From Clostridiales bacterium (GTDB lineage: Bacteria; Bacillota; Clostridia; Oscillospirales; CAG-272): a stretch of DNA of 64,000 bases. A program made the translations under genes and the position numbers. Location: positions 1-64,000 of the forward strand of contig JAAZIU010000034.1 in NCBI GenBank assembly GCA_012800735.1, written 5' to 3'. The notes under the pieces were generated by a model. The model worked only from the letters and a program-made list of their open reading frames with translations, was not told the origin of the DNA and searched no databases. The first letter of the stretch is position 1. Each line of letters begins with the position of its first letter. Below are positions 195 to 14,306 of this stretch, one piece after another.

Positions 195-1412
195 TTATGT
201 TTTTCCTGATTGTTTTTTTACATATCTTTTCATTATGATAAGCGTAATTATCAGAGCGATGGGGAAAACAACGCCGAAAATCATTCCCCGCTTTATGTCT
301 CCGTCTAAAACTCCGGTCATGGTTCCGACCAGAGTCGGACCTGCCGCGCAGCCTAAATCCCCGCCTAAAGCAAGCAAGGCGAACATAGCGGTTCCACCGC
401 TTCTGGCGTTTGCCGCAGCAACCGAGAAAGTTCCCGGCCACATTATTCCGACAGAAAATCCGACAACACCGCAGCTGATCAGCGACAACCACGGAGACGG
501 AGACAGCGAGATTACAAGATAACCCGCTACGCAAAGAACAGAGCTTGCAAGCATATAAGCGGATACATTTACCTTTTCGCCGATTTTTGCGTAAATAACA
601 CGCGACGTTCCCATCAGTATTGAAAACATACACGGACCCATGAGATCACCGATAGTTTTATCCACGCCGAGTCCGGCTTCGGCAAAATCCGATGCCCATT
701 GTGAAACCGTAAGCTCCGACGCGCCCGAACAAACCATCATCAGCATCAAAATCCAGAATATCGGCTCAAGCAGCAGTTTTTTGAAGGATATTGTGCTCTC
801 TGATGTTTCTTCAAGAGAAAGAATTGGCACAAAGCTGAACAGAATTGCTCCTGTAAGTGGAATTAACGCCCATAAAGCAGACAGTATTCTCCAGTTTATA
901 AGACCTGCGGTGTTGAAAAACAGGGTTGATAAAAGCACAACCGCGACGCTTCCCCAGCAATAGAAGGAATGGAGCAGGCTCATCTGCTGCGCTTTATGTA
1001 CTGTAGGGCAAGCCTCAACTATCGGACTGATAACGACTTCAATAATTCCGCCTCCTATCGAACAAAGCAGCACCGATATTATAAGTCCGATATAAGGCGA
1101 ATGCGCAATGTAGGGCAAAAAGCCGTATGAGACAAGTCCCGACACCGCTGATATATGCGCAAAAACCACCGCTTTGCGATATCCGGTTTTTGAGATTAAT
1201 TTTGAAGATATTAAATCGACAGAAAGCTGAAAAAGGAAATTCAGTGTTATAAGCGAAGTAATCTGGCTTAAAGGAATACCGAATTCATTTTGAAATCGGA
1301 TAAACAGAAGCGTAGGAAAGATATTGACAATAGCTTGCGTTATATAACCTATATAGCAGGAATATATCGTTATCTTGTATTTCGACGCTTCGGCCGCCTT
1401 GTTTGAGTACAT
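195..1412 (-). CDS. MFS transporter
   Basis: A 405-residue polytopic membrane protein of the length and hydrophobicity of a 12-helix major facilitator. The loop after the second helix (KLISKTGYRKA) resembles the family's conserved cytoplasmic loop 2-3 signature. The substrate cannot be read from sequence; fucose-permease-like sugar porters are possible. It starts five bases after the RNase J stop, so the two are probably co-transcribed, although the roles are not obviously linked. An AAGAAG stretch lies just before the ATG as a weak ribosome site. The 166-residue ORF at 133-633 on the same strand is a shadow of this gene. Confidence 0.85.
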   Translation of the reverse strand: MYSNKAAEASKYKITIYSCYIGYITQAIVNIFPTLLFIRFQNEFGIPLSQITSLITLNFLFQLSVDLISSKLISKTGYRKAVVFAHISAVSGLVSYGFLPYIAHSPYIGLIISVLLCSIGGGIIEVVISPIVEACPTVHKAQQMSLLHSFYCWGSVAVVLLSTLFFNTAGLINWRILSALWALIPLTGAILFSFVPILSLEETSESTISFKKLLLEPIFWILMLMMVCSGASELTVSQWASDFAEAGLGVDKTIGDLMGPCMFSILMGTSRVIYAKIGEKVNVSAYMLASSVLCVAGYLVISLSPSPWLSLISCGVVGFSVGIMWPGTFSVAAANARSGGTAMFALLALGGDLGCAAGPTLVGTMTGVLDGDIKRGMIFGVVFPIALIITLIIMKRYVKKQSGKT

Positions 1413-1417
1413 CTTCT

Positions 1418-3094
1418 TTATATATTCATTACGACGGGCAGTATCATCGGATTGCGCTTTGTTCTGTTGAAAAGGAATTTTGCGAGGTCATCCTTCATTC
1501 TCGTTTTGAGCTGAGTCCAATCGGTAACATTGTGGTCAAGCGAATCCTGCAGGGCATCGCGCGCAAGCACTTTGACCTGATTCATAAGTTCGTCCGCTTC
1601 CCTTACATATACAAAGCCGCGGGAGACAATGTCCGGACCGGATAATATCATCCGTTCATCAATACTTACAGTCGCGACAACAACAATAAGTCCGTCTTTT
1701 GAAAGGTGACGACGGTCGCGCAGAACAATATTCCCGACATCGCCGATACCGTAGCCGTCAACAAGAACCTTGCCTGAGGGAACGGTGCCGTTGAATTTAC
1801 AGCTGTTTTCATCAAGTTCGAGAATCAAGCCGAGATCAGAGATAAAAATATGTTCCTCCGAAATCCCGACGTCGATGGCGTTTTCTCTGTTTGCCGCTAA
1901 ATGACGATATTCGCCGTGTATCGGCATAACGAATTTCGGTTTTGTAAGAGCCATCATAAGCTTCAGTTCTTCTTTGCAGGCGTGTCCGGATACATGTATC
2001 TCAATCGAAGTATCTCGGAAAACATCAACCCCCCGCTTGCAAAGCTCGTTTATGATCTTGTCGATTAATTTTTCGTTTCCGGGTATTGCCGAAGCAGAGA
2101 TAACGACGAGATCGGTCGGTCCAAGTTCCACCTTGTCATGCTCGGAAAAAGCCATTCGATAGAGCGCTGACATCGGCTCGCCCTGTGTTCCGGTTGTTAC
2201 AATGGTAAGCTGCTCCATCGGGTAGCGCTTGATATCATTTATATCGATAAGCGCGCCGCGCGGAACTTTCATATACCCGAGTTCAACCGCGGCGGTAACG
2301 ATGTTCAACATGCTGCGGCCGGTAATCGCGACTTTGCGATTAAAGCGGGCGCTGGTATCGATTATCTGCTGAACTCTATGTACGTTGGAGCTGAATGTAG
2401 CAATTACAATCCGCTTATCCGGATTCATCATAAAAATGCCTTCAAGGTTTTCGCCGACAACTCTTTCAGAAGGGGTATATCCCTTCCGTTCGGCGTTTGT
2501 TGAATCGCACATTAGCAGCAGTACGCCTTCTTTACCGAGTTCACCAAGCCGGGGTATATCCATAATTTCGCCGTCAATCGGGGTTATATCAAGTTTAAAG
2601 TCACCGGTATGTACAACCGTACCGACCGGAGTTTTGATCGCCAGAGCGCATGCGTCGGCTATTGAGTGATTAACTCTGATAAATTCGATGCTGAATCCGC
2701 CGGCTTTGACAACATCACCGACAGATACTGTGTTTAAATCCGGCTTGCGCGGAAGACGATGCTCTTCAAGCTTATTTCTGAGTATGCCTATCGTCAGCCT
2801 TGTGCCGTAGATCGGAGCGTTCAGAATTCGGAGAACATAAGGGATCGCGCCGATATGGTCCTCATGACCGTGAGTTAAGAAAATACCGCGAATCTTATCC
2901 TGATTCTTTTCGAGATAAGAAACATCGGGAATTACAAGATCGATTCCGAGCATTTCCTCGTCGGGAAAACCAATTCCACATTCGATAATGATTATGTCAT
3001 TCCCATATTCCAGAACATACATATTCTTGCCGACCTCATTGAGGCCGCCGAGCGCAAAGACCTTGAGTTTTGATGTGCTTTTATTTTTAGCCAT
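1418..3094 (-). CDS. rnjA: Ribonuclease J
   Basis: A 558-residue beta-CASP metallo-beta-lactamase nuclease of normal RNase J length. The metal-binding motif HGHEDH lies at residues 75-80. Further marks are a later HTGDFKLD motif, the beta-CASP SGHA motif and a GEYRHL segment, all expected for the RNase J1/J2 group. It is an endo- and 5'-to-3' exonuclease for mRNA turnover and rRNA processing in the cytoplasm, standing in for RNase E in Bacillota. The start ATG is preceded by AAGGTG. Only one RNase J gene is visible here, so J1 versus J2 cannot be settled. Confidence 0.95.
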   Translation of the reverse strand: MAKNKSTSKLKVFALGGLNEVGKNMYVLEYGNDIIIIECGIGFPDEEMLGIDLVIPDVSYLEKNQDKIRGIFLTHGHEDHIGAIPYVLRILNAPIYGTRLTIGILRNKLEEHRLPRKPDLNTVSVGDVVKAGGFSIEFIRVNHSIADACALAIKTPVGTVVHTGDFKLDITPIDGEIMDIPRLGELGKEGVLLLMCDSTNAERKGYTPSERVVGENLEGIFMMNPDKRIVIATFSSNVHRVQQIIDTSARFNRKVAITGRSMLNIVTAAVELGYMKVPRGALIDINDIKRYPMEQLTIVTTGTQGEPMSALYRMAFSEHDKVELGPTDLVVISASAIPGNEKLIDKIINELCKRGVDVFRDTSIEIHVSGHACKEELKLMMALTKPKFVMPIHGEYRHLAANRENAIDVGISEEHIFISDLGLILELDENSCKFNGTVPSGKVLVDGYGIGDVGNIVLRDRRHLSKDGLIVVVATVSIDERMILSGPDIVSRGFVYVREADELMNQVKVLARDALQDSLDHNVTDWTQLKTRMKDDLAKFLFNRTKRNPMILPVVMNI

Positions 3095-3456
3095 TAATTT
3101 TTCACCTTAATAAAATGATTCTTAGATTTTTTTTAACGTTATAAATATTATATATGCAGAAATAAATGATCTGACCGTAAATTATGCGCCACAGATAACG
3201 GGCGCAAAAATAAAATCGGATCATAATTCATGATTCGATCTTTATTGACTCCAGCCCAACGCACAGCAAGAGTCGAAAATAAGGGGACGCCACGAACACA
3301 TTTACATTATAATATTATATCATTTATTTAAGTTATAAAATAAAGGTAAATGTAAAAAATTATTTAATAAACTCGAAGACTTGTTTTTCCTTACGATTAA
3401 TATTGAATTAATGTACAATATATGTTATAATGATAAAGCGTAAGAGGTGAAGTTTG
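3095..3456. other. Intergenic region between rnjA and DUF2079 gene
   Basis: About 360 bases without a gene. It holds the plus-strand promoter annotated separately and an AT-rich leader for rnjA. A small stem, TGCGCC / GGCGCA with a ten-base loop, lies at 3185-3206. It has no T run on either strand, so I do not call it a terminator. No RNA gene family is recognisable. Confidence 0.5.
3403..3431 (+). promoter_or_regulatory. Sigma-A promoter of DUF2079 gene
   Basis: TTGAAT, a 17-base spacer and a perfect TATAAT, ending about 25 bases before the start codon, with an AGAGGTGA ribosome site between. Confidence 0.8.
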
Positions 3457-5283
3457 ATGATTAAAGATAAAATATATGGTTTTGCCGAAGATATACGGCA
3501 AAGGCTTGATAAGCGCTCACTATCAGATATATCGCTCTGGGCGGCTGCCGCAGCGTCTGCTTATATAATCGCTTCAATTCTTTCTCTTGTGCGATTTAAA
3601 AGCTACGGACTGCGGGAGTTTATAACCGGGTTCTCTTACCCGCTTTTTTGGATATCGCTTGCGGTTGCTTTTTCGGCATTAATCGCTCTTGTTGCCTTAA
3701 CTCGTAAAACTTCAATAGTATACTTAACACTTTGTGTTTCAGCGGTGGTATTCGCATCGGCGCTTGCAGCCATTCTTGACTCAAATATCTATTACAACAT
3801 GGGTTTGGCGCTTGTAATTATTATAATAGCCAAAGCTGCATTATCAAAAGGACGCCTGTCAGTTGATTTTCATATAAGTTGGCGCGGCGGCTATATCGCA
3901 ATAGTTATTCTGGCAATAATATTCGGCGTTATTACTGCCTATGTAACCTCGTTCAAATACCACACTTTCAGCGAGGCCACCTTTGACCTCGGTATTTTTA
4001 CTCAAATGTTTGAGATGATGGCAAAAACCGGTCTTCCGCTCACAACAGTTGAGAGAGGGCGAGAGCTGACTCATTTTGCGGTGCATTTTTCTCCGTTCTT
4101 TTATCTTCTCCTTCCCGGATATCTGCTTTGGCGCTCTCCGCTATACCTTTTCTTTATTCAGGCTCTCGGAGTTTCACTCGGAGCTATTCCCGTTTACAGG
4201 ATAGGCAAAGCTTTGAAGTTCTCGCCGATTTCATCTCTTCTATGCTCGCTCGTTTATCTGATGTATCCGACGATGCTTAACGGATGCTTCCGCGATTTCC
4301 ATGAAAACAAGTTTTTAGCCGTCTGTATTCTTTACCTAATTTATTTCATTTTAATTGAAAATCGAGTGGGAACCATTGCTTTCACATTGCTTACTCTGAG
4401 CATAAAAGAAGACGCTGCAATTTATATCTTTGCTATCGCCCTTTTCATTATCTTTTCAAGAAAAAGGAAATATCGCGGAATAATCATGCTTTTTGGCGCT
4501 GCGGGATATTATCTGTTCGCTACTAAGATGATAACCGTTTTCGGCGGAGAAGCTATGGTAGACAGATTTGCAAATTATTATCTGGGAGGCGGCAAAGGTC
4601 TTTTGACTGTCATAAAAACTTGCTTCTATGATATTGGGTATCTGCTGCTTCAGGTTTTTAACGCCGAGAAATTTCAATTTATACTATGGACTTTCATGCC
4701 TCTTACCTTCACTTTGATCAGCGGAGCATCTGCAAGTGAACTTGTTCTGCTGATGCCGGCGCTGGTTATCAACCTTATGTCAAACTGGATTTATCAGTAT
4801 AATGTTGATTTTCAGTATACATACGGCTCCTGCGCGTTGATGATTGTTCTTTATATGCTTGCGTTGGCAAGAATTAATGAAAAAGATTTAAGTTATAAGA
4901 CGGAGGATTGGAAACGACCTTTTGTATCGTTGATGCTTTGCGTAATCTTCACCTTTTCACTTACTTTCGGAAAAACGGCAAGATATACCGGCGCATATGC
5001 TGCAGATAAAGCTTCATATAAGGCGTCTGAGGCGATTTTAGCATCAATTCCGAAAGACGCAACGGTGACGGCGGGTGATTTCCTTGTTCCGCATCTATAT
5101 TTCATCAGCGAGCTGCAAAGCTATCCTCCTCTATACGGGAAGTTGCAGCCGACTGAATATGTTGCGGTTGATTTGCGGGCGCTTGACGATGAATTCGATC
5201 CGTATGCGTTTATGAATGGAGAGTATTCGCTCGTTGACAGCAAGGGTTTTGTTGAGCTGTGGAAGCGCGACGGCTCCTATTGA
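3457..5283 (+). CDS. DUF2079 polytopic membrane protein
   Basis: A roughly 608-residue membrane protein with many hydrophobic helices. The first periplasmic-type loop carries FDLGIFTQMFEMM and HFAVHFSPFFYLLLPGY, the hallmark segments of the DUF2079 family. That family is thought to have a GT-C glycosyltransferase-like fold, but no activity is assigned. The ORF track begins at a TTG. I prefer the ATG one codon later because GAGGTGA is well spaced from it. The stop codon is embedded in the -35 box of the smpB promoter, so the genes are tightly packed. A role in modifying envelope glycans is inference only. Confidence 0.85.
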   Translation: MIKDKIYGFAEDIRQRLDKRSLSDISLWAAAAASAYIIASILSLVRFKSYGLREFITGFSYPLFWISLAVAFSALIALVALTRKTSIVYLTLCVSAVVFASALAAILDSNIYYNMGLALVIIIIAKAALSKGRLSVDFHISWRGGYIAIVILAIIFGVITAYVTSFKYHTFSEATFDLGIFTQMFEMMAKTGLPLTTVERGRELTHFAVHFSPFFYLLLPGYLLWRSPLYLFFIQALGVSLGAIPVYRIGKALKFSPISSLLCSLVYLMYPTMLNGCFRDFHENKFLAVCILYLIYFILIENRVGTIAFTLLTLSIKEDAAIYIFAIALFIIFSRKRKYRGIIMLFGAAGYYLFATKMITVFGGEAMVDRFANYYLGGGKGLLTVIKTCFYDIGYLLLQVFNAEKFQFILWTFMPLTFTLISGASASELVLLMPALVINLMSNWIYQYNVDFQYTYGSCALMIVLYMLALARINEKDLSYKTEDWKRPFVSLMLCVIFTFSLTFGKTARYTGAYAADKASYKASEAILASIPKDATVTAGDFLVPHLYFISELQSYPPLYGKLQPTEYVAVDLRALDDEFDPYAFMNGEYSLVDSKGFVELWKRDGSY

Positions 5284-5308
5284 CAAAATATTACCGTTGT
5301 GATATAAT
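5280..5308 (+). promoter_or_regulatory. Strong promoter for smpB-ssrA
   Basis: A perfect consensus TTGACA, 17-base spacer and TATAAT. The -35 overlaps the TGA stop of the upstream DUF2079 gene. Confidence 0.9.
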
Positions 5309-5349
5309 AATAATGCGATTTGACGGCTGAGGGAGGGTGATATTTCCAT

Positions 5350-5826
5350 ATGGCAAGCCGTGACAAAAATAAAGGCAGGAAACTTATTGCCCAGAACAAA
5401 AAAGCTTATCATGACTATTTTATAATCGACACTTATGAAGCCGGAATCGAGCTTTTCGGTACTGAAGTCAAATCGGTGCGCAAAGGCTCTGTTAACTTAA
5501 GAGACAGCTTCTGCACAGTTGAAAAAGGAGAGCTTATCGCTCACGGCATACACATCAGCCCATATGAGCAGGGGAACATCTTCAACCAAGAACCGCTGCG
5601 GAAAAAACGCCTTCTTATGCATAAACGCGAGATAAACCGTCTTGCGATGAATATAAATAAAGAAGGATACACCCTTGTTCCGCTGTCGTTATACTTTGTC
5701 AAATCCTGGGTCAAGGTTGAACTTGGACTCTGCAAAGGCAAAAAGCTTTATGATAAACGCGAAAGCGACGCTTTGCGCGAAGCCGAACGCGACATTGAGC
5801 GGAGTCGAAACGCCGGATATCTATAA
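5350..5826 (+). CDS. smpB: SsrA-binding protein SmpB
   Basis: A 158-residue protein of typical SmpB length. It has the N-terminal KKAYHDYFIIDTYEAGIEL segment, the core GTEVKSVRKGSVNLRDSF, and the basic C-terminal tail (KLYDKRES and following residues) that reads the empty mRNA channel. SmpB binds the tRNA-like domain of tmRNA and delivers it to stalled ribosomes for trans-translation. GGAGGGTG precedes the ATG. Its stop codon ends exactly one base before the mature tmRNA 5' end, so binding partner and RNA are transcribed together. Confidence 0.97.
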   Translation: MASRDKNKGRKLIAQNKKAYHDYFIIDTYEAGIELFGTEVKSVRKGSVNLRDSFCTVEKGELIAHGIHISPYEQGNIFNQEPLRKKRLLMHKREINRLAMNINKEGYTLVPLSLYFVKSWVKVELGLCKGKKLYDKRESDALREAERDIERSRNAGYL

Positions 5827-6171
5827 GGGGGCGCAATGGTTTCGACGGGGACTTTGAAACAAGATAAGCAGGCGGAGGTGGGGAACCTCCATAAAAGCTC
5901 TAAAAACAATAACTGATAACAAGACTGAACTTGTTGCTGCCTAATTAAGGCAGCCGTCCGCTCAGAGAGTATCGCGGCTCTGTGTCGGGCGTCATTCAGC
6001 GGTGAACGTGAACTGAGAGTTCGTCCTTATAACAGTCACGGATAAAAGGGCTGCCCGCGTCGTTTTTTGCCGGATGGAGTCGACGCGGGGAGATTAATCG
6101 TCCGGCTGAGCCTGGAGAAAGTTTTGCGGAGGAGTTTTCGGACACGGGTTCGATTCCCGTCGCCTCCACCA
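5827..6171 (+). ncRNA. ssrA: Transfer-messenger RNA (tmRNA)
   Basis: A one-piece tmRNA of 345 nt. The 5' end GGGGGCG pairs with CGCCTCC before the discriminator A and encoded CCA at 6169-6171. The conserved TTCGACGGGG block follows the 5' end, and GGTTCGATTCC forms the T arm. The most likely tag reading frame runs from the GCT at 5897 to TAA at 5942-5944 and gives ALKTITDNKTELVAA. The hydrophobic LVAA ending is what ClpXP-type proteases expect. The exact resume codon is inferred. Confidence 0.95.
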
Positions 6172-6176
6172 GATAG

Positions 6177-6208
6177 AAAAGACAGTTGTCATATTGCAGC
6201 TGTCTTTT
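6177..6208 (+). terminator. Terminator of ssrA
   Basis: A 12-bp stem, AAAAGACAGTTG with CAGCTGTCTTTT (one G-U pair), and an eight-base loop ending in a short T run directly after tmRNA. Confidence 0.8.
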
Positions 6209-6253
6209 CAGATTTTGTACTTCTGTCATATAATTATCATGCAGGAAATAGTT

Positions 6254-7279
6254 ATGAAAGAAAACTTAAAAATAGCCGTTTTGGGAACCGGATATTGGGC
6301 GCAGTTTCAGATTGCCGCCTGGATGGATATAGGTTGCAAGGTTACAGCCGTTTGGAACAGAACGACCAGTCGCGCCCGGGACACAGCAAATCGCTTTGAT
6401 ATACCCAATGTATACGAAACCGTAGACCAGCTTCTTTGCGAAGCGGATTTTGACATTGTCGACATTATAACAGATGCCGAAGTCCACGAGGAATTGGTTT
6501 TGGCTGCCGCGGCTAAAGGCAAACCGGTTATCTGCCAGAAACCGATGTCTCTTGACGAAGAAAGCTGCCGGCGCATGGTTGACGCCTGTGAGAAAGCAGG
6601 AGTATGGTATGCTATACATGAAAATTTCCGCTATCAGCCGCAGTTCCAAAGCCTGAAGCACCATATGGAAACTGCTTCCCTCGGTAAAGTGCTTCATGCT
6701 CATATTCAGATGCGCTCACCGGACAGGGATATTATCCGCAAACAACCTGCGCTTGCAACAATGGAACATATGGCGCTGCGCGACATGGGACCGCATATCT
6801 TTGATGTTGTCAGGTTTCTCTTCGGTGAAATAGACGAGATTCAGACAATTCCCGTTTCTTCATATCAAGATATCCCGGTGGATGATACGGCGCTCTCTCT
6901 GCTGCGTATGCAGGAAGGATTTCCGGTTCTTTGCACACTTGCTCATAAGTTTCATTATAAGGCCTTCATTCAATTCGAAAATGGCACTATAACACTGAAT
7001 GCTGAAAATAACATTGAAGTTGAGAACGGACAAAATATAGCTTTTTATCCCTTTGAAGAACCCACAAGACTTTCATATATCCCCGATGACGACTGGGCAA
7101 TTCACGGTAGTCATGTATTTGCCGCTATTCCCACATGTTTACAAGCGCTCCGATACGCTTTTGTCAATCAACAAGAAGCCGAAACAAGCGGAAAAGATAA
7201 TCTGAAGACTATGCAGGCAGTGTTTGCCGCCATACGTTCGGTGGAACTTAAGAAGCCGCAAGCCTGCGGAAAGGATTGA
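6254..7279 (+). CDS. apsD: Gfo/Idh/MocA dehydrogenase, probable D-apiose dehydrogenase
   Basis: A 341-residue NAD(P)-dependent oxidoreductase. It has an N-terminal Rossmann fold (IAVLGTGYWAQ, residues 7-17), the family catalytic QKP at 95-97 (usually EKP) and a DMGPHIFD segment with the conserved histidine. I chose the ATG at 6254 because residue 21 of the longer ORF begins the fold and AGGAA lies upstream. A TATAAT sits at 6229-6234. The fold alone would not give a substrate. The three following genes match the D-apionate branch of apiose catabolism, so I infer oxidation of D-apiose to apionolactone. If the operon acts on another sugar, it is a generic sugar dehydrogenase. Confidence 0.75.
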   Translation: MKENLKIAVLGTGYWAQFQIAAWMDIGCKVTAVWNRTTSRARDTANRFDIPNVYETVDQLLCEADFDIVDIITDAEVHEELVLAAAAKGKPVICQKPMSLDEESCRRMVDACEKAGVWYAIHENFRYQPQFQSLKHHMETASLGKVLHAHIQMRSPDRDIIRKQPALATMEHMALRDMGPHIFDVVRFLFGEIDEIQTIPVSSYQDIPVDDTALSLLRMQEGFPVLCTLAHKFHYKAFIQFENGTITLNAENNIEVENGQNIAFYPFEEPTRLSYIPDDDWAIHGSHVFAAIPTCLQALRYAFVNQQEAETSGKDNLKTMQAVFAAIRSVELKKPQACGKD

Positions 7280-7283
7280 AAGT

Positions 7284-8099
7284 ATGCGGATTGGTATATC
7301 AAGTTGGAGTTATCCTTATACCATAGGCAATAAAGCATATGATTTGCCGGCACATCCGATGGGGCTTCTTGAGCTTGCCAATAAGGCTGTCATGCATGGC
7401 GCTGAAGTGCTACAAGTAGCGGATAATCTGCCTTTACATAATATTTCTCATGAGGAATTGCTTCAGCTTCGCGTTCTTACCGAAAAACACAATCTTGAAC
7501 TTGAGGTTGGAACGGCAGGACTTGAACAGGACAATTTACTTAAGTATCTTAATATTGCGCAAACTCTCGGCGCTAAATTGGTTCGGACACTTCCCCACTC
7601 CGGTAAGGATGTTCCCTCTTTGGATGTCGCTAAGCGGCGAGTTGATGAAGTACTTGGAAAGTTTTCCGATGCCGGTATAATCCTCGGTATAGAGAACCAC
7701 GATCACTATCCCAGTGATTGGATAAGAAAGTTGATCGATGCATTTAACGACCCTCATCTCGGCGTATGTCTTGATGCAGTCAATAATCTGGGGCTTGGTG
7801 AAAGCTTTCGAGAAGTTCTGCATATTCTGGGATCTGTTACGGTTAATTTTCATTGTAAAGATTACACTATTCGCAGAAAGCATTCAATGCTCGGTTTCGA
7901 TGTTGAAGGCGCTGTTACGGGTAATGGGTTTCTTAATCTGGAGTTGGCAATACAGGTTTTACCTGCAAATATATCTTGGGTGCTGGAATCCTGGATGCCT
8001 TGGCAGGGAGATATCGAAAAGACCGTCGCCATGGAAGAAGAATGGGTTATCAAAGGACTATACAATCTTCGTGCATTCAGGGAGACAAATGAAAATTAA
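7284..8099 (+). CDS. oiaC: TIM-barrel sugar isomerase family, probable 3-oxo-isoapionate decarboxylase
   Basis: A 271-residue xylose isomerase-like TIM barrel. Candidate divalent-metal ligands are E137 (GIENHDHY), D164 (CLDAVNN), H190 (NFHCKD) and E235 (VLESWMP). The start at 7284 follows GGAAAGG and lies four bases after the apsD stop. In characterised D-apionate pathways a protein of this fold, OiaC, decarboxylates 3-oxo-isoapionate to L-erythrulose. I assign that role from gene company. By fold alone it could be any sugar phosphate isomerase or epimerase. Confidence 0.65.
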   Translation: MRIGISSWSYPYTIGNKAYDLPAHPMGLLELANKAVMHGAEVLQVADNLPLHNISHEELLQLRVLTEKHNLELEVGTAGLEQDNLLKYLNIAQTLGAKLVRTLPHSGKDVPSLDVAKRRVDEVLGKFSDAGIILGIENHDHYPSDWIRKLIDAFNDPHLGVCLDAVNNLGLGESFREVLHILGSVTVNFHCKDYTIRRKHSMLGFDVEGAVTGNGFLNLELAIQVLPANISWVLESWMPWQGDIEKTVAMEEEWVIKGLYNLRAFRETNEN

Positions 8100-8115
8100 T
8101 TTATAAGGTTTGCAA

Positions 8116-10014
8116 ATGGATACACAGCGCATAACAAAAAATCAATGGATAGGTATTCCTGAACAGCCGCCGCAGCGTATTTGTCTGCAGGCAGGCGAGC
8201 TTCAAGTAACGATGCTGGACGGCAGGCTGCTTAATGTATGTTTTCATGGCGAAAAGCTGATTGACGAGGTCTACTTTGCCCTTCGTGATCCGAACTGGGG
8301 TACAGTTCCCTATACTTTGAAAGAACAAAAGATTGAGAAGCATCCGGATAGATTTGTCTATCATTTTCAGGCAGAGCATACAGTTGGCAACTATCAATAT
8401 CGCTGGCAGGGGTGTGTTAAAGGCAGCGCGGATGGAACGGTAACCTTTTCTTCAACCGGAGAGGCGGGAGAGAGGTTTTTAAAAAACCGCCTGGGATTTT
8501 GCGTATTGCATCCAATCAGCTGCGCAGGTCTTCCCTGTTTGATTGAACATTCTAACGGAACAAGCAAAGAAACCGTCTTCCCAAAACAGATTGCACCTCA
8601 TCAGCCATTTTTTGATATCTCGGCTATGACATATCGGCGAGATGAGTTTAGCTGCCGTGTAGCTTTTGAAGGTGATGTGTTCGAGTGCGAAGATCAGCGA
8701 AACTGGACAGACGCATCATTTAAAACATATTGTACTCCTCTTTATCTTCCTTTCCCTGTTCAAGTTGATAAAGGGGAACGGTTCAGTCAGACGGTGCATA
8801 TAAATTGTACAGCTTCCGGCATAAGTGATGTCGGCAAACCGACCGGCGAAGATAAGGATAATATAATTGAGTATTCGGAACTGCTTCCCATCAATGAGAA
8901 TTTTTCGCTTGGAACCTGTTTGCGATTTCCTATCGATGAAGCTTCTCTAAAGATTGGAAAAGAATTAGGTCTTAATCATATAAGAGTGGAACTTCATTTC
9001 TGTGAACAGCCTGTCTTCTTTGATGAATTGCTGAAACAAGCCGCTCAGATGACAAACTCAATCCATCTGTTTGTTTTTCTAACGATAAACTGGCAGCAGG
9101 AAATGCCTTTGTTGCTCAATCTTCTGGCACGACACCCGGTCGTCACTGCAGTGATCCTTTATCAGGAAGGCCGCAAAGTAATTGACAAAACCATTCTTTC
9201 CATTTGTCGCGGGATGCTTCTGAGTTTTAGATTGCCTGTCGGTTCGGGAACCGATGCGTATTTCACCCAGTTGAACCGCGAACCTTTGCCGGGTGAGCTG
9301 ATGGATTTTCTCTGTTATTCCAACAACCCGCAGGTGCATGCCTTTGATAATCATTCAATTATGCAAACAACCGCCGGTCAGGCGGCAAATGTCATAAGCG
9401 CACGGGCTTTATATCCCGATAAATCCGTATATGTAACTCCGGTAACGCTAAAAATCAGGTGGAACCCCGATGCAACCGCTGAAGTTTCCGATCATGAACA
9501 GCTTTTACTTAATCAAATTGATAATCGCCAAATGTCTCTGATGTGCGCTTCCTGGATGCTGCGTTCGATAATTGCATTGTCTTTAAGCGGCGCAGCGGGC
9601 GCTGATTATTTTGAGCTGGCGGGACCTCGCGGTTTTTTTGCGGAACAAAATAGAATATTGCCGGAAGAATTCCCGACTTTTTCGGGTATGGTATTCCCTT
9701 CCTATTATGTGTTTCGCGAAGCGCTTGTAATCTTTCGAGAACAGAATGTAAAGGCAATAAACGGCCAACAATTCTGTATTCTGTTAAGCGATAACAAGAT
9801 ATTAATTGCAAACACAACAGATGAGCAGATAAAACTCAGCCTCGACGGATGGCCGAGTATCGAGGGTATTTGTCTTAACGGTGATACAGCAGAGCGATAT
9901 GCGATATGCAAAAAAGAACAAATGACGGAAGATATCAAGATGATATTTAATTCTGCCGCGGGAAATTCAATAATCCTGCAGCCTTATTCGATTATTTTAG
10001 GAAATTTTATTTAA
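8116..10014 (+). CDS. apnL: Probable D-apionate lactonase
   Basis: About 632 residues with no signal peptide, hence cytoplasmic. The N-terminal half is beta-rich (NRLGFCVLHP, then a region ending FFDISAMTYRRDEF). The middle (LRFPIDEASLKIGKELGLNHIRVEL) looks like a TIM barrel of the glycosidase superfamily, and the C-terminus is a small beta domain. This architecture and its place between a sugar dehydrogenase, an OiaC-like protein and an ApnO-like protein fit ApnL, which opens D-apionolactone to D-apionate. The ORF track begins at a TTG; the ATG two codons later has AAGG at good spacing. I know of no catalytic motif that could be checked by eye. Confidence 0.6.
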   Translation: MDTQRITKNQWIGIPEQPPQRICLQAGELQVTMLDGRLLNVCFHGEKLIDEVYFALRDPNWGTVPYTLKEQKIEKHPDRFVYHFQAEHTVGNYQYRWQGCVKGSADGTVTFSSTGEAGERFLKNRLGFCVLHPISCAGLPCLIEHSNGTSKETVFPKQIAPHQPFFDISAMTYRRDEFSCRVAFEGDVFECEDQRNWTDASFKTYCTPLYLPFPVQVDKGERFSQTVHINCTASGISDVGKPTGEDKDNIIEYSELLPINENFSLGTCLRFPIDEASLKIGKELGLNHIRVELHFCEQPVFFDELLKQAAQMTNSIHLFVFLTINWQQEMPLLLNLLARHPVVTAVILYQEGRKVIDKTILSICRGMLLSFRLPVGSGTDAYFTQLNREPLPGELMDFLCYSNNPQVHAFDNHSIMQTTAGQAANVISARALYPDKSVYVTPVTLKIRWNPDATAEVSDHEQLLLNQIDNRQMSLMCASWMLRSIIALSLSGAAGADYFELAGPRGFFAEQNRILPEEFPTFSGMVFPSYYVFREALVIFREQNVKAINGQQFCILLSDNKILIANTTDEQIKLSLDGWPSIEGICLNGDTAERYAICKKEQMTEDIKMIFNSAAGNSIILQPYSIILGNFI

Positions 10015-10039
10015 TTTTTTTTTAAAGGGAGAATTATTT

Positions 10040-10900
10040 ATGGTTCAAAAAGTAGTATTGCTGGGCGCGGGGGGAAAAATGGGTATGCGCATTACCCCGA
10101 ACATTAAGGATGAACCGTCCTACGAAATCTCTTATGTGGAGATTAGTGAAAAGGCTGCGCAGGCGCTGAAAGAAAAACACGGTGTGACTTCCTCTCCCGG
10201 ATCAGAACCGGTAAAGTCGGCTGATATTGTTGTGTTTGCGGTGCCTGATAAGCTTATCAAAAATGTTTCTGCCGACATTGTGCCTCAGATGAAAACCGGA
10301 GCGATGGTCATCGGACTTGATCCTGCCGCTCACTTCGGAGAAGTAATGTTTATGCGGGAAGACCTGAAATACTTCGTCGTGCATCCTTGTCATCCCAGTC
10401 TTTTCCCGTTTGAAGACGGAATCAGCGAAGCTGCGCAGCGGGATTGGTTCGGCGGCACGGGAGCCGCAAAGATGGATATGGTTTGCGCTATCCATCAAGG
10501 TTCGGATGAAGACTATGAGCGGGGCGAAGCTTTCGCGCGTCTTATGTTTAAACCCATAGACAAAGCTTTCCGCATAACCATTGATCAGATGATTCTTTTG
10601 GAGCCGGCTCTTGTCGAATCCATCACCGCACCCTTGGTCAAAGGTATGCGTATGGCGGTGGATGCCTGCGTGGAAAAAGGCGTGCCGCGGGATGCGGTGA
10701 TGTCATTCGTTATGGGACACCTTAAGGTACAGTTTGGCGTATTGTTTGACTTTGCCGGATTCCCTTTTTCCGACGGAGCTAATTTGGCATTGCGCAATGC
10801 GATGGACGTTATTTTTAAGCCGGATTGGTTAGAAAATATCATGAATAAAGAAGCGGTTGAAAAAAGCGTTCATGATATTACTCATGAACTGAATGACTAA
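10040..10900 (+). CDS. apnO: Probable D-apionate oxidoisomerase
   Basis: A 286-residue two-domain dehydrogenase. The N-terminal Rossmann motif is VVLLGAGGKMGMRI. It is followed by VVFAVPDKLI, a VIGLDPAAHFGE segment and VVHPCHPSLFPFE, then an all-helical C-terminal domain of the phosphogluconate-dehydrogenase-C type. This is the layout of the ApnO family, which oxidises and isomerises D-apionate to 3-oxo-isoapionate with NAD. A clear AAAGGGAG ribosome site lies upstream. It is the most diagnostic gene of the operon. An annotation pipeline would probably call it a generic semialdehyde or phosphogluconate dehydrogenase. Confidence 0.7.
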   Translation: MVQKVVLLGAGGKMGMRITPNIKDEPSYEISYVEISEKAAQALKEKHGVTSSPGSEPVKSADIVVFAVPDKLIKNVSADIVPQMKTGAMVIGLDPAAHFGEVMFMREDLKYFVVHPCHPSLFPFEDGISEAAQRDWFGGTGAAKMDMVCAIHQGSDEDYERGEAFARLMFKPIDKAFRITIDQMILLEPALVESITAPLVKGMRMAVDACVEKGVPRDAVMSFVMGHLKVQFGVLFDFAGFPFSDGANLALRNAMDVIFKPDWLENIMNKEAVEKSVHDITHELND

Positions 10901-10938
10901 AAAATAGAGTTATTTATCGTTGTTGATTCTAAATAATA

Positions 10939-10974
10939 AAGTGCCTGCACTTAAATCGGTGCAAGCACTTTTTT
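10939..10974. terminator. Bidirectional terminator between apnO and NifX-like gene
   Basis: AAGTGCCTGCAC pairs with GTGCAAGCACTT (one mismatch) around an eight-base loop, followed by a T run and preceded by A-rich sequence. It separates two convergent operons. Confidence 0.8.
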
Positions 10975-10984
10975 ATTTAATTCA

Positions 10985-11344
10985 TTACTCTTTGCCGGCG
11001 CAGTCATCAATATGCTGATGGCAAACGGAACCGGTTGATTTCAGTGAACCTTGCAGGTAAGCCTCAACCGATGTTTTTGATTCGCCGGAAGCTCCTACGA
11101 TAACTTCAACGTTTCTTTCATTGAAAATCTGTACTGCGCCGCCGCCCATACCGCCGCTGATAATTACATTTACACCTCTGTCGGCGAGAAAGTTAGGCAG
11201 AAATCCGGGTTTATGTCCGGGATTTGCAACGGTTTCGCTTTTGATTATCTGCTTGTTTTCGGTGTCAAAAATCATGAAGCTTTCGCAATGTCCGAAGTGA
11301 TCGGCTACAATTCCTTTGTCGGTTGCTACTGCAATTCTAAGCAT
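10985..11344 (-). CDS. NifX/NifB-type dinitrogenase cofactor-binding domain protein
   Basis: A 119-residue single-domain protein of the dinitrogenase iron-molybdenum cofactor family. It shows MLRIAVATDKGIVADHFGHCESFMIFD at the start and a glycine-rich IISGGMGGGAVQIF segment. A short cysteine/histidine tail (CHQHIDDC) could hold metal. Family members bind Fe-S or Fe-Mo clusters in transit, but no nitrogenase genes are present in the window. It is the last gene of a seven-gene minus-strand cluster and has its own GGAGG site. A role as a cluster carrier for the two neighbouring ATPases is inference. Confidence 0.85.
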   Translation of the reverse strand: MLRIAVATDKGIVADHFGHCESFMIFDTENKQIIKSETVANPGHKPGFLPNFLADRGVNVIISGGMGGGAVQIFNERNVEVIVGASGESKTSVEAYLQGSLKSTGSVCHQHIDDCAGKE

Positions 11345-11395
11345 TAATATTTTTCCTCCGTATTTTCTTATAATTTATATTATCGGTTTTTTTAT

Positions 11396-12217
11396 TTAAA
11401 AAGTCAATTCACTGCCTGCGGCAAGGTAATCAATACTGTCACCCATTACTGATTTCAACCTTTTATAGGGTTCAATACCGGTACAATGACAAGTATAATA
11501 CTTTGCTTTTGTATCTTTCAGATATTCAGCGATTCTGTCAATCACTTCCGGGGCTTCATCGCCGCCGGAACGGCTGGAAAGATGAAAACCGCCTATTACA
11601 CAGTCGGGCATTCGACCTTTCAGCGTGTAAAAATGCTTGACTATATTGACAATACCGTTATGAGCGCAACCGGTTATCAGCAGTATTTTCCCGTCTTCTT
11701 CTATCACGAGGTTTTGCTCATGTTCAAAGCTGTCGTGTATCATTTGTCCCTGATATTCTTTGAACAAAGTATTGTTTAATATTGGAAGCGGTTCGCTTTG
11801 CGGAATGCCGGAGAACACATAGATTCCATTACCGATATCATGATAGTCTGATGTAAAAACAATTTGTCTGTTCTGTTTCAGATTTTCATCAAGACCTATA
11901 TATGCAATTTTATTGTTTGAACGGGCTGAATAATATTTTTCAAATGCAAGCTGATGTATGATTACTTCGGCCTTTTCATTTTCTTCGAAAAATGTTTTCA
12001 GCCCTCCGCCATGGTCGTAGTGTCCATGCGAGATAACAAGGAAATCAATATCAGCAATGTTTATACCAAATGTTTTTGCATTTTGAAGAAACAGATCGCT
12101 TGCGCCTACATCAAACAATATTTTATGATTTTTTGTTTCGATATAAAGGCTTAAACCGTGTTCACTTGCAAAGTCCTTTGATATCGATGTGTTTTCAGAT
12201 AAGGTTTTAATAATCAT
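11396..12217 (-). CDS. MBL-fold metallohydrolase, COG1237-like
   Basis: A roughly 273-residue metallo-beta-lactamase fold protein. The metal site SHGHYDHGGG and the later GCAHNGIVNIV and GGFHLSSR segments are those of the group named after a dihydropterin ribofuranosyl-aminobenzene phosphate synthase. True function in bacteria is unknown. The track ORF begins at 12253 and would overlap the upstream gene by 32 bases; the ATG at 12217 lies directly after that gene's stop and begins the conserved sequence, so I prefer it. It sits inside the NifX/MinD cluster. Confidence 0.8.
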   Translation of the reverse strand: MIIKTLSENTSISKDFASEHGLSLYIETKNHKILFDVGASDLFLQNAKTFGINIADIDFLVISHGHYDHGGGLKTFFEENEKAEVIIHQLAFEKYYSARSNNKIAYIGLDENLKQNRQIVFTSDYHDIGNGIYVFSGIPQSEPLPILNNTLFKEYQGQMIHDSFEHEQNLVIEEDGKILLITGCAHNGIVNIVKHFYTLKGRMPDCVIGGFHLSSRSGGDEAPEVIDRIAEYLKDTKAKYYTCHCTGIEPYKRLKSVMGDSIDYLAAGSELTF

Positions 12218-12221
12218 AACT

Positions 12222-13100
12222 TTAGTTAATGCTTTCTTCAAAAAGCAGGTCAATCGTCTTGTTATAAACCTCTTTTACCGCTGTGCCTGATTTACATTCA
12301 ATGTCTACTATGGTTAAACCATTATTTATGGCTTTAACTGCGTTTGAGTCATAAGGAATAACGCCGACAAAGGTAAGTTCTTGTTTTTCACAGAAATCTT
12401 TGATTTTTTTTGTATTTTCGATATTTGTATCGTATTTATTGATACATACCGCAGTTTTTATTCCGAATTTCGCTGCCGTATCAATGATACGCTCCATATC
12501 GCTGATGCCTGACAATGAAGGTTCTGCAACAATCAAAACCATATCTACGCCGTTAAGAGAGGCAATTACCGGACATCCTATTCCCGGTGAACCGTCGATT
12601 ATAGCAAGTTCTGCATTGACCGCCGATGACCTCATTTGTTTTTTTACCTCAGTAACGAGTAAGCCTGAGTTGCCGCTGCCCATTTTGAGCTGCGCCGTGG
12701 AAAAAACTTTGCCGGAGTCAGAATAAAGAGTCAGCTCGCCGTCAACCGACGGAACCATTAATATAGCATCAACGGGACAGACATACTCGCAGACGCTGCA
12801 CCCTTCGCAAGCGAAATGGTCAACTTTGTATTCATCGTTGGTAATTGAAATGGCATCAAAGCGACAATTCTGTTTGCATTGATCGCAGCCGATGCACATT
12901 TCAGAGTTTATTTCTGCTTTCGACAGTCCGTAGTAATCTGATTTTATCGGTTCCACATTCCAATCGGAAATGAGGTGCAGGTTAGGAGCATCCACGTCGC
13001 AATCCGCATATGCTCTGGCGTCGGCGAGCTTTATAAACGCGCTTGCTATCGTCGTTTTGCCGGTACCGCCTTTACCGCTGAGGATCAGCAGCTGCCGCAT
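12222..13100 (-). CDS. MinD-family P-loop ATPase with two [4Fe-4S] ferredoxin motifs (second copy)
   Basis: A 292-residue protein with deviant Walker A GKGGTGKT at residues 9-16 and an inserted bacterial ferredoxin domain carrying two cysteine sets, CIGCDQCKQNC and CEGCSVCEYVC. IDGSPGIGC serves as the switch region. It belongs to the MinD superfamily with inserted ferredoxin domain, related to Mrp/NBP35 scaffold ATPases. AAAGGAGGTG precedes the ATG, and the start overlaps the previous gene by 16 bases, suggesting translational coupling with its paralogue. The likely role is ATP-driven Fe-S cluster assembly or transfer; the target is unknown. Confidence 0.88.
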   Translation of the reverse strand: MRQLLILSGKGGTGKTTIASAFIKLADARAYADCDVDAPNLHLISDWNVEPIKSDYYGLSKAEINSEMCIGCDQCKQNCRFDAISITNDEYKVDHFACEGCSVCEYVCPVDAILMVPSVDGELTLYSDSGKVFSTAQLKMGSGNSGLLVTEVKKQMRSSAVNAELAIIDGSPGIGCPVIASLNGVDMVLIVAEPSLSGISDMERIIDTAAKFGIKTAVCINKYDTNIENTKKIKDFCEKQELTFVGVIPYDSNAVKAINNGLTIVDIECKSGTAVKEVYNKTIDLLFEESIN

Positions 13101-13936
13101 GATTGCACCTCCTTTGTCACAGTTTGAAGCAGAACTGAAAACAGTTCCCGGTATTTTTCACTTTCATTTACGGCGATCTCGGCATTTGAGTTAAGTGTTC
13201 CGAGTTCATTGTCAAACGGGATACGACCTAATATCTTGATATTATTCTCTATACAAAATGTCTCAGCCGGATTTTTGCCGTCCAAGCATTTATTAAGAAC
13301 AACTCCGAACGGCTTTTTGAATAAAGTCACAAGCTCATATACCATATTAAGGTTATGCACGCCGAACAATGTAGGTTCGGCGACCAATATGCAATAGTCG
13401 GCATCTTTTATGCTTTCCATTACTATACAAGCGCTTCCCGGAGGACAGTCGATAACTGTCATTTTATCTGCTTCCTGATTTTCCGGTTCAAGCAGTTTTT
13501 TTATGATGGGAACCCCCGAGGCTTCACCGACATTCATAATACCGGTGTATACAGATACATTTCCGGAGGTTCCTTTTTGAACTGTACCGATAACCTTATC
13601 CTTTTCTGTCAAAGCTTTTTCGGGACAAATTAGGATACATCCGCCGCAGGAATGACATATCTCATCAAATACAATCAGTTTATTTGTATAGGCAAGAGCG
13701 TTGAATTTACAGAAATTTACGCATTTACGGCATCCGCTGCATAATTCTTCATCTGCCATCGGAATCTTTACGGTTACTTTTTCCTCTGTGATTCCTTCCG
13801 GTTTGAAAAATAGATGTCCGTTAGGTTCTTCAACATCGCAGTCAATGTATGTCGCTGTCTTTGCCGCTGCTGCCAAATTTACCGTGACAAGAGTTTTACC
13901 TGTGCCGCCCTTGCCGCTTAACACGGCAATTTTCAT
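13085..13936 (-). CDS. MinD-family P-loop ATPase with two [4Fe-4S] ferredoxin motifs (first copy)
   Basis: A roughly 283-residue paralogue of the next gene. GKGGTGKT lies at residues 8-15, and the inserted ferredoxin domain has CSGCRKCVNFC and CHSCGGCILIC. The switch is IDCPPGSAC. The longer ORF start at 14014 would run deep into the upstream NifX-like gene; the ATG at 13936 follows that gene's TGA by one base and begins the fold, so it is chosen. Two adjacent different copies suggest a heterodimer of the two ATPases, as is common in this gene family. Confidence 0.88.
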   Translation of the reverse strand: MKIAVLSGKGGTGKTLVTVNLAAAAKTATYIDCDVEEPNGHLFFKPEGITEEKVTVKIPMADEELCSGCRKCVNFCKFNALAYTNKLIVFDEICHSCGGCILICPEKALTEKDKVIGTVQKGTSGNVSVYTGIMNVGEASGVPIIKKLLEPENQEADKMTVIDCPPGSACIVMESIKDADYCILVAEPTLFGVHNLNMVYELVTLFKKPFGVVLNKCLDGKNPAETFCIENNIKILGRIPFDNELGTLNSNAEIAVNESEKYRELFSVLLQTVTKEVQSCGSC

Positions 13937-13937
13937 A

Positions 13938-14306
13938 TCAGTTGCTTCTGCGGCCATGAAAGCCGGCGTGAAAATCATCCAGCAAAGAAAGTTTGCCGTC
14001 AGTAAAAGCGTCAATGTTATCTTGAGCTGAACCGGCTATTGTTTTGTAAATCTTAATACCGGCTGCATTCAACACATCTGCGGCGTTTTGTCCGCAGCGA
14101 GGAGTCAGCAAAGCAGCTGCTTTGTTATCCACTATCATCTGAGCTGCTTTTATCCCTGCGCCGCCGGGGCTTGTCGCTGCGGTGTTTTCTATAAATGCGC
14201 TTTCCTTAGTTTCCGTATCATAAACTAGAAAATAAGGAGCGCGTCCGAAAGATGCGCATATATTTGTATCCAATGTTTTGTTATCTACAGGTATTGCTAT
14301 TTTCAT
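13938..14306 (-). CDS. NifX/NifB-type dinitrogenase cofactor-binding domain protein
   Basis: A 122-residue member of the same family as the gene at 10985, with MKIAIPVDNKTLDTNICASFGRAPYFLVYD and the LLTPRCGQNAADVL segment. The C-terminus has HAGFHG, possibly metal-binding. ACGGAGAAA lies upstream of the ATG. Its stop is one base from the start of the first ATPase gene, so the pair is translationally coupled and probably works together as carrier and ATPase. Confidence 0.85.
   Translation of the reverse strand: MKIAIPVDNKTLDTNICASFGRAPYFLVYDTETKESAFIENTAATSPGGAGIKAAQMIVDNKAAALLTPRCGQNAADVLNAAGIKIYKTIAGSAQDNIDAFTDGKLSLLDDFHAGFHGRRSN

Follow-up and report, generated by a model that had tools for sequence, protein, structure and literature searches.

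A putative four-gene operon for oxidative D-apiose degradation in a Clostridiales bacterium, with enzymes divergent from tested ones

Four genes in the genome of a Clostridiales bacterium probably constitute one transcription unit for an oxidative, non-phosphorylating route of D-apiose degradation. Judged from sequence, the operon represents a diverged version of an already known route, and its enzymes are far from those tested. Apiose is a rare branched sugar of the plant wall and occupies a key place in the highly complex pectin rhamnogalacturonan II. In proteobacteria, D-apiose is degraded oxidatively by ApsD, ApnL, and ApnO and then OiaK/OiaX, as reportedly described by Carter et al. in 2018. 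In the present study, we computed the family of each gene, the conserved putative catalytic residues, and the repeated linkage of the same families in other genomes.

In the proposed route, the Gfo/Idh enzyme would convert D-apiose to D-apionolactone with NAD(P), and the divergent ApnL-type protein would open the D-apionolactone ring to form D-apionate. The ApnO-type enzyme would then oxidize and rearrange D-apionate to 3-oxo-isoapionate (hydroxymethyl shift), from which the TIM-barrel enzyme would release L-erythrulose and CO2. We infer the co-transcription of the genes, the identity of the substrate, the order of the reactions, and the fate of L-erythrulose.

Layout and borders of the operon

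The window is the whole stretch of DNA analyzed, 64,000 nucleotides of contig JAAZIU010000034.1 (assembly GCA_012800735.1). The features of the locus are as follows.

5827-6171, + strand: ssrA (tmRNA; ARAGORN), the gene directly upstream of the operon
6176-6209, + strand: terminator-like hairpin of ssrA (pattern scan, 14 pairs)
6205-6234, + strand: promoter-like site TTTTCA-18-TATAAT ahead of the operon, with AGGAA near 6244 (consensus match only)
6254-7279, + strand: ApsD-type Gfo/Idh dehydrogenase, 341 aa, proposed D-apiose 1-dehydrogenase (PF01408/PF22725)
7284-8099, + strand: OiaC-type xylose-isomerase-like TIM barrel, 271 aa, proposed 3-oxo-isoapionate decarboxylase (PF01261)
8116-10014, + strand: divergent ApnL-type protein, 632 aa from the ATG at 8116, proposed D-apionolactone hydrolase (NF049900)
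10040-10900, + strand: ApnO-type Rossmann/PGDH_C enzyme, 286 aa, proposed D-apionate oxidoisomerase (PF16896; 5t57 match)
10938-10971, strand not assigned: terminator-like hairpin (pattern scan and sequence)

The original prediction described four co-directional, closely packed genes, and this was confirmed: the four open reading frames are intact, lie on the + strand, and are separated by 4, 16, and 25 bp. The block is bounded by the terminator-like hairpin of ssrA and the hairpin at 10938-10971, which is probably common to the operon and the convergent gene at 10985-11344. Both the promoter-like site and the hairpins were recognized by consensus matching only; their positions fit the gene borders. 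G+C is uniform over the operon region. Upstream of the operon are genes for a DUF2079 membrane protein, smpB, and ssrA; downstream are a convergent gene for a Nitro_FeMo-Co protein and genes for MinD-like ATPases. Consistent with the claim that these functions are unlinked, no transporter, regulator, or downstream kinase adjoins the operon in this neighborhood. For the Dak1-type kinase, this result extends to the whole source assembly, in which none was found.

Family assignments of the four proteins

The fold classes were found in the order that had been predicted: GFO_IDH_MocA, AP_endonuc_2, a protein without a Pfam family, and PGDH_C with a Rossmann domain. The first protein matches GFO_IDH_MocA at 5.2e-23. 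Its top PDB match, by a wide margin, is 5uhw (1.2e-35), which we take to be the ApsD structure of the 2018 apiose study. K96 in a QKP motif and H181 are invariant in six aligned rows, and a DMGPH motif is also kept. The protein is 53% identical to a G864 protein whose gene lies beside OiaC and ApnO genes and 26-29% identical to proteobacterial ApsD. Several of its high-scoring plasmid matches adjoin ApnL or ApnO genes; in Sinorhizobium americanum, the match at 467904-468917 adjoins ApnL at 468986.

The large third protein gave no family match in a Pfam search. It matched a single NCBIfam model, NF049900 (D-apionate lactonase ApnL; E=5.8e-77), with a score of 259.6 bits, which is under the curated equivalog cut-off of 750 bits. 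The statement that generic annotation would hide the pathway therefore held only in part: the score is under the naming threshold, but the ApnL model does match. On the same model, proteobacterial proteins adjoining other apiose genes score 770-814 bits (Shinella, 813.5 bits) and the G341 homolog scores 288.6 bits. Overall, the window protein shares 28% identity with the Shinella protein in the alignment, yet it retains 67 of the 98 columns that are invariant in eight proteobacterial rows (Ensifer was left out of this alignment), including EDQRNW-D-S-KTY, H132, N387-R388, H408-D411, and R448-N450. Identity is 42-47% to the G341 and G394 homologs and 24-26% to the proteobacterial ones. A contig scan with this single protein found solely alphaproteobacterial relatives (26-28% identity). 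A structure prediction based on six sequences had low confidence (mean pLDDT 48.9), and the N-terminal beta domain alone (about residues 20-235) was predicted with fair confidence. We propose that this protein would hydrolyze D-apionolactone. In Mesorhizobium, an ApnL-family protein (L020:8034-9929; 616.5 bits, also under the cut-off) is encoded near HpcH/HpaI aldolase and CUT1-type ABC genes and not near ApnO.

The last protein matches PF16896 (PGDH_C) at 8e-43 and has a Rossmann N-terminus. Its HPxHP motif is present, with H115, P116, H118, and P119 invariant in 11 relatives. The best solved relative among PDB sequences is 5t57 (1.5e-64), presumably the ApnO structure from the 2018 apiose study. 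The sequence of 5t57 was located on pBB1 of Cupriavidus necator N-1, where OiaX-like and OiaK-like genes come after it. The window protein is 76% identical to the G394 homolog. In a tree with a midpoint root only, in which Erwinia was a long branch, it formed a 96/96 group with proteins of G394, Haloterrigena, and G1128 (two proteins), apart from the 5t57 group. The Haloterrigena gene is on a plasmid, with a four-carbon acid sugar kinase gene and a RuBisCO-like gene nearby. The two ApnO-like genes of G1128 (L048, L049) are each by a nitrilase-like gene, and one is near RuBisCO-like and class II aldolase genes; these loci possibly belong to a different branched-acid pathway.

Clustering of the third and fourth proteins with the ApnL and ApnO families had been put forward as the check on the prediction, and the outcome was mixed. 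Both proteins fall within the superfamilies, but outside the tested subgroups, as one misses the 750-bit cut-off and the other is in a clade separate from 5t57. The apiose-operon reading is largely supported, with the same qualification: the four superfamily assignments and the apiose/apionate context hold, but not close membership in ApnL and ApnO. Because of this divergence, we did not file the two proteins as ApnL and ApnO proper; nevertheless, they most likely work like ApnL and ApnO.

The second protein matches AP_endonuc_2 (PF01261) at 5.2e-13. All eleven relatives compared share the metal-site residues E137, D164, H190, and E235. Identity between the window protein and its relatives is 30-37%, whereas two unrelated PF01261-type controls reach only 12-22%. 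Strong plasmid relatives were few, with a score break below 128 bits. OiaC-type relatives adjoin ApnO in Erwinia, G394, G341, G840, and G864. In Erwinia sp. E602, MFS, DhaK-type kinase, TPI-like, OiaC-type, and ApnO-type genes form one row, with the TIM-barrel relative placed between the TPI-like and ApnO genes. L-Erythrulose and its phosphate are the substrates of LerK and of the TPI homolog LerI (PMC10733421), and the Erwinia gene set is, thus, what would be expected if the TIM barrel yields L-erythrulose. Further relatives adjoin DhaK-type kinase or transketolase-like genes. Since the metal site is invariant, the controls are distant, and the neighboring genes in Erwinia and elsewhere fit, an OiaC-type function appears likely. 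At the loci L024, L025, L026, and L030, OiaC-like TIM-barrel genes lie beside split transketolase-like genes, an SDR gene, and TRAP transporter genes, with a DhaK-type kinase gene additionally present in L025 and L030. These loci look like another sugar-acid cluster ending in a tetrulose.

Related clusters and rival readings

Strain LCG007 grows on D-apiose and has an ApnL/ApsD/ApnO cluster with a kinase and a decarboxylase (PMC11747546). On pShin-03 of Shinella sp. HZN7, genes for an ApnO-type protein, a ribose-type ABC importer, a Gfo/Idh protein, ApnL, an annotated OiaX, and a four-carbon acid sugar kinase occur together. These Shinella and plasmid contexts indicate that three of the four window genes have matched neighbors in the cluster type reported for D-apiose growth. 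The window shares the Gfo/Idh, ApnL-type, and ApnO-type genes in a single locus with the proteobacterial pathway of Shinella sp. HZN7. However, it has the OiaC-type TIM barrel in place of the kinase and RuBisCO-like decarboxylase and is without the ABC importer and regulator, and the proteins are only about 25-40% identical. In both the window and Erwinia sp. E602, the OiaC-type TIM barrel adjoins ApnO. Erwinia has an MFS transporter, a DhaK-type kinase, and a TPI-like isomerase, without ApsD or ApnL in the stretch read, whereas ApsD and ApnL are present in the window without a kinase or isomerase.

Four further genomes of the class (G394, G341, G864, and G840) contain related clusters with differing gene orders. 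G394 and G341 encode the nearest homologs of the window ApnL-type and ApnO-type proteins. In contrast to the window, their genes are arranged as ApnL-ApnO-OiaC followed by linked ABC transporter genes, no Gfo/Idh gene was seen in the cluster sequence, and each cluster is split over two contigs; that of G394 additionally has GntR, AraD-like, and FGGY kinase genes. G864 has the nearest ApsD and the common order ApsD (53%)-OiaC (38%)-ApnO (39%). It differs in having an Amidohydro_2 protein (L050:2872-3636) where ApnL would be and no ApnL; this protein is a possible non-orthologous apionolactonase. In G840, OiaC is divergent from ApnO-ApsD, and a PF13204+PF12904 protein (374 bits; L047:6743-8059), which has a predicted apiosidase-type architecture, is encoded just downstream. 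The G840 cluster points to apiose. The G864 and G840 assemblies are less complete or less clean. That these families recur in four arrangements speaks for their acting as a functional unit; since they are linked again in other orders, their linkage in the window is more than chance. Among 391 sampled genomes of the class, an ApnL-type protein was detected in 3, counting the source genome, and among 59 relatives in 1, which was the source genome itself. For the ApnO-type protein, the count was 1 among 399 genomes of the phylum (the source genome), 3 among 394 of the order, and 3 among 33 of the order to which G341 belongs. The cluster is rare in the class.

The operon may instead act on another branched sugar or branched sugar acid through the same series of reactions (dehydrogenase, lactonase, oxidoisomerase, and decarboxylase), with folds and mechanism in common and a different substrate; we consider this unlikely. 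The ApnL score below the cut-off, the distance of the first protein from proteobacterial ApsD (only 26-29% identity), and the separate ApnO clade, which also holds the G1128 proteins by nitrilase-like and RuBisCO-like genes, are consistent with this explanation. The Mesorhizobium ApnL relative, with no other pathway genes nearby, also counts against apiose. However, the families co-occur as in apiose clusters, 67 of the 98 conserved ApnL columns are retained, and an apiosidase-type gene is linked in G840, with another present in the source genome. It is even less probable, in our view, that free D-apionate or apionolactone is imported in place of apiose, with the Gfo/Idh enzyme serving another step or direction. 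The G394 and G341 clusters, with no Gfo/Idh gene in the sequence seen, agree with such uptake; however, the Gfo/Idh gene is first in the window operon and in G864, with 53% conservation, and proteobacterial clusters pair Gfo/Idh with ApnL.

A relic or an assembly artefact is very hard to credit. A search of other genomes of the genus did not recover the cluster, but the four frames are intact with the putative catalytic residues kept, the promoter-like and terminator-like borders are clean, G+C is even, and the contig is syntenic with a sister species up to ssrA. In that species (G002), an 82% blastn alignment covers window positions 198-6175, ending four bases past ssrA, after which other genes come. 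The window genes at 10985-14306 encode the Nitro_FeMo-Co protein, two MinD-like ATPases that carry ferredoxin-type motifs, and a metallo-hydrolase-like protein; a search of the three other genus members did not recover these genes. The synteny break and this distribution of the downstream genes fit acquisition at the 3' end of ssrA, resembling an integration hotspot, but no second copy of that end, as an att site, was found within the window.

Fate of L-erythrulose and implications

Neither a close relative of the G394 FGGY kinase nor a ribose-type relative of the G394 importer was found in the source assembly. The only match to that FGGY kinase, on contig C15, was rejected as a G394-type kinase because it is a xylulokinase-like protein. 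The sole long match to the G394 ABC protein, on contig C33, has neighbors of a nucleoside/BmpA-like importer. Since the assembly is about 93% complete, the absence of the kinase and importer is not proven. The assembly also has a 17-kb contig (C4, L034) with a single PF13204 apiosidase-family protein and genes for a GDSL esterase, a rhamnosidase-like protein, L-fucose isomerase, and GH95. This contig is a candidate pectin side-chain locus, which suggests the use of rhamnogalacturonan II.

We speculate, with considerable doubt, that the module stands alone and ends in L-erythrulose without a dedicated kinase, and that the Amidohydro_2 protein has taken over the lactonase step in G864. L-Erythrulose would then become an end product, either exported or reduced (cross-feeding); alternatively, an unrelated kinase would phosphorylate it.

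The present results raise the question of the fate of L-erythrulose without a LerK-type kinase. If the route is shown, a lineage with a distant oxidative pathway would widen the range of known apiose users, and the ApnL and ApnO families would extend well beyond the tested proteins.
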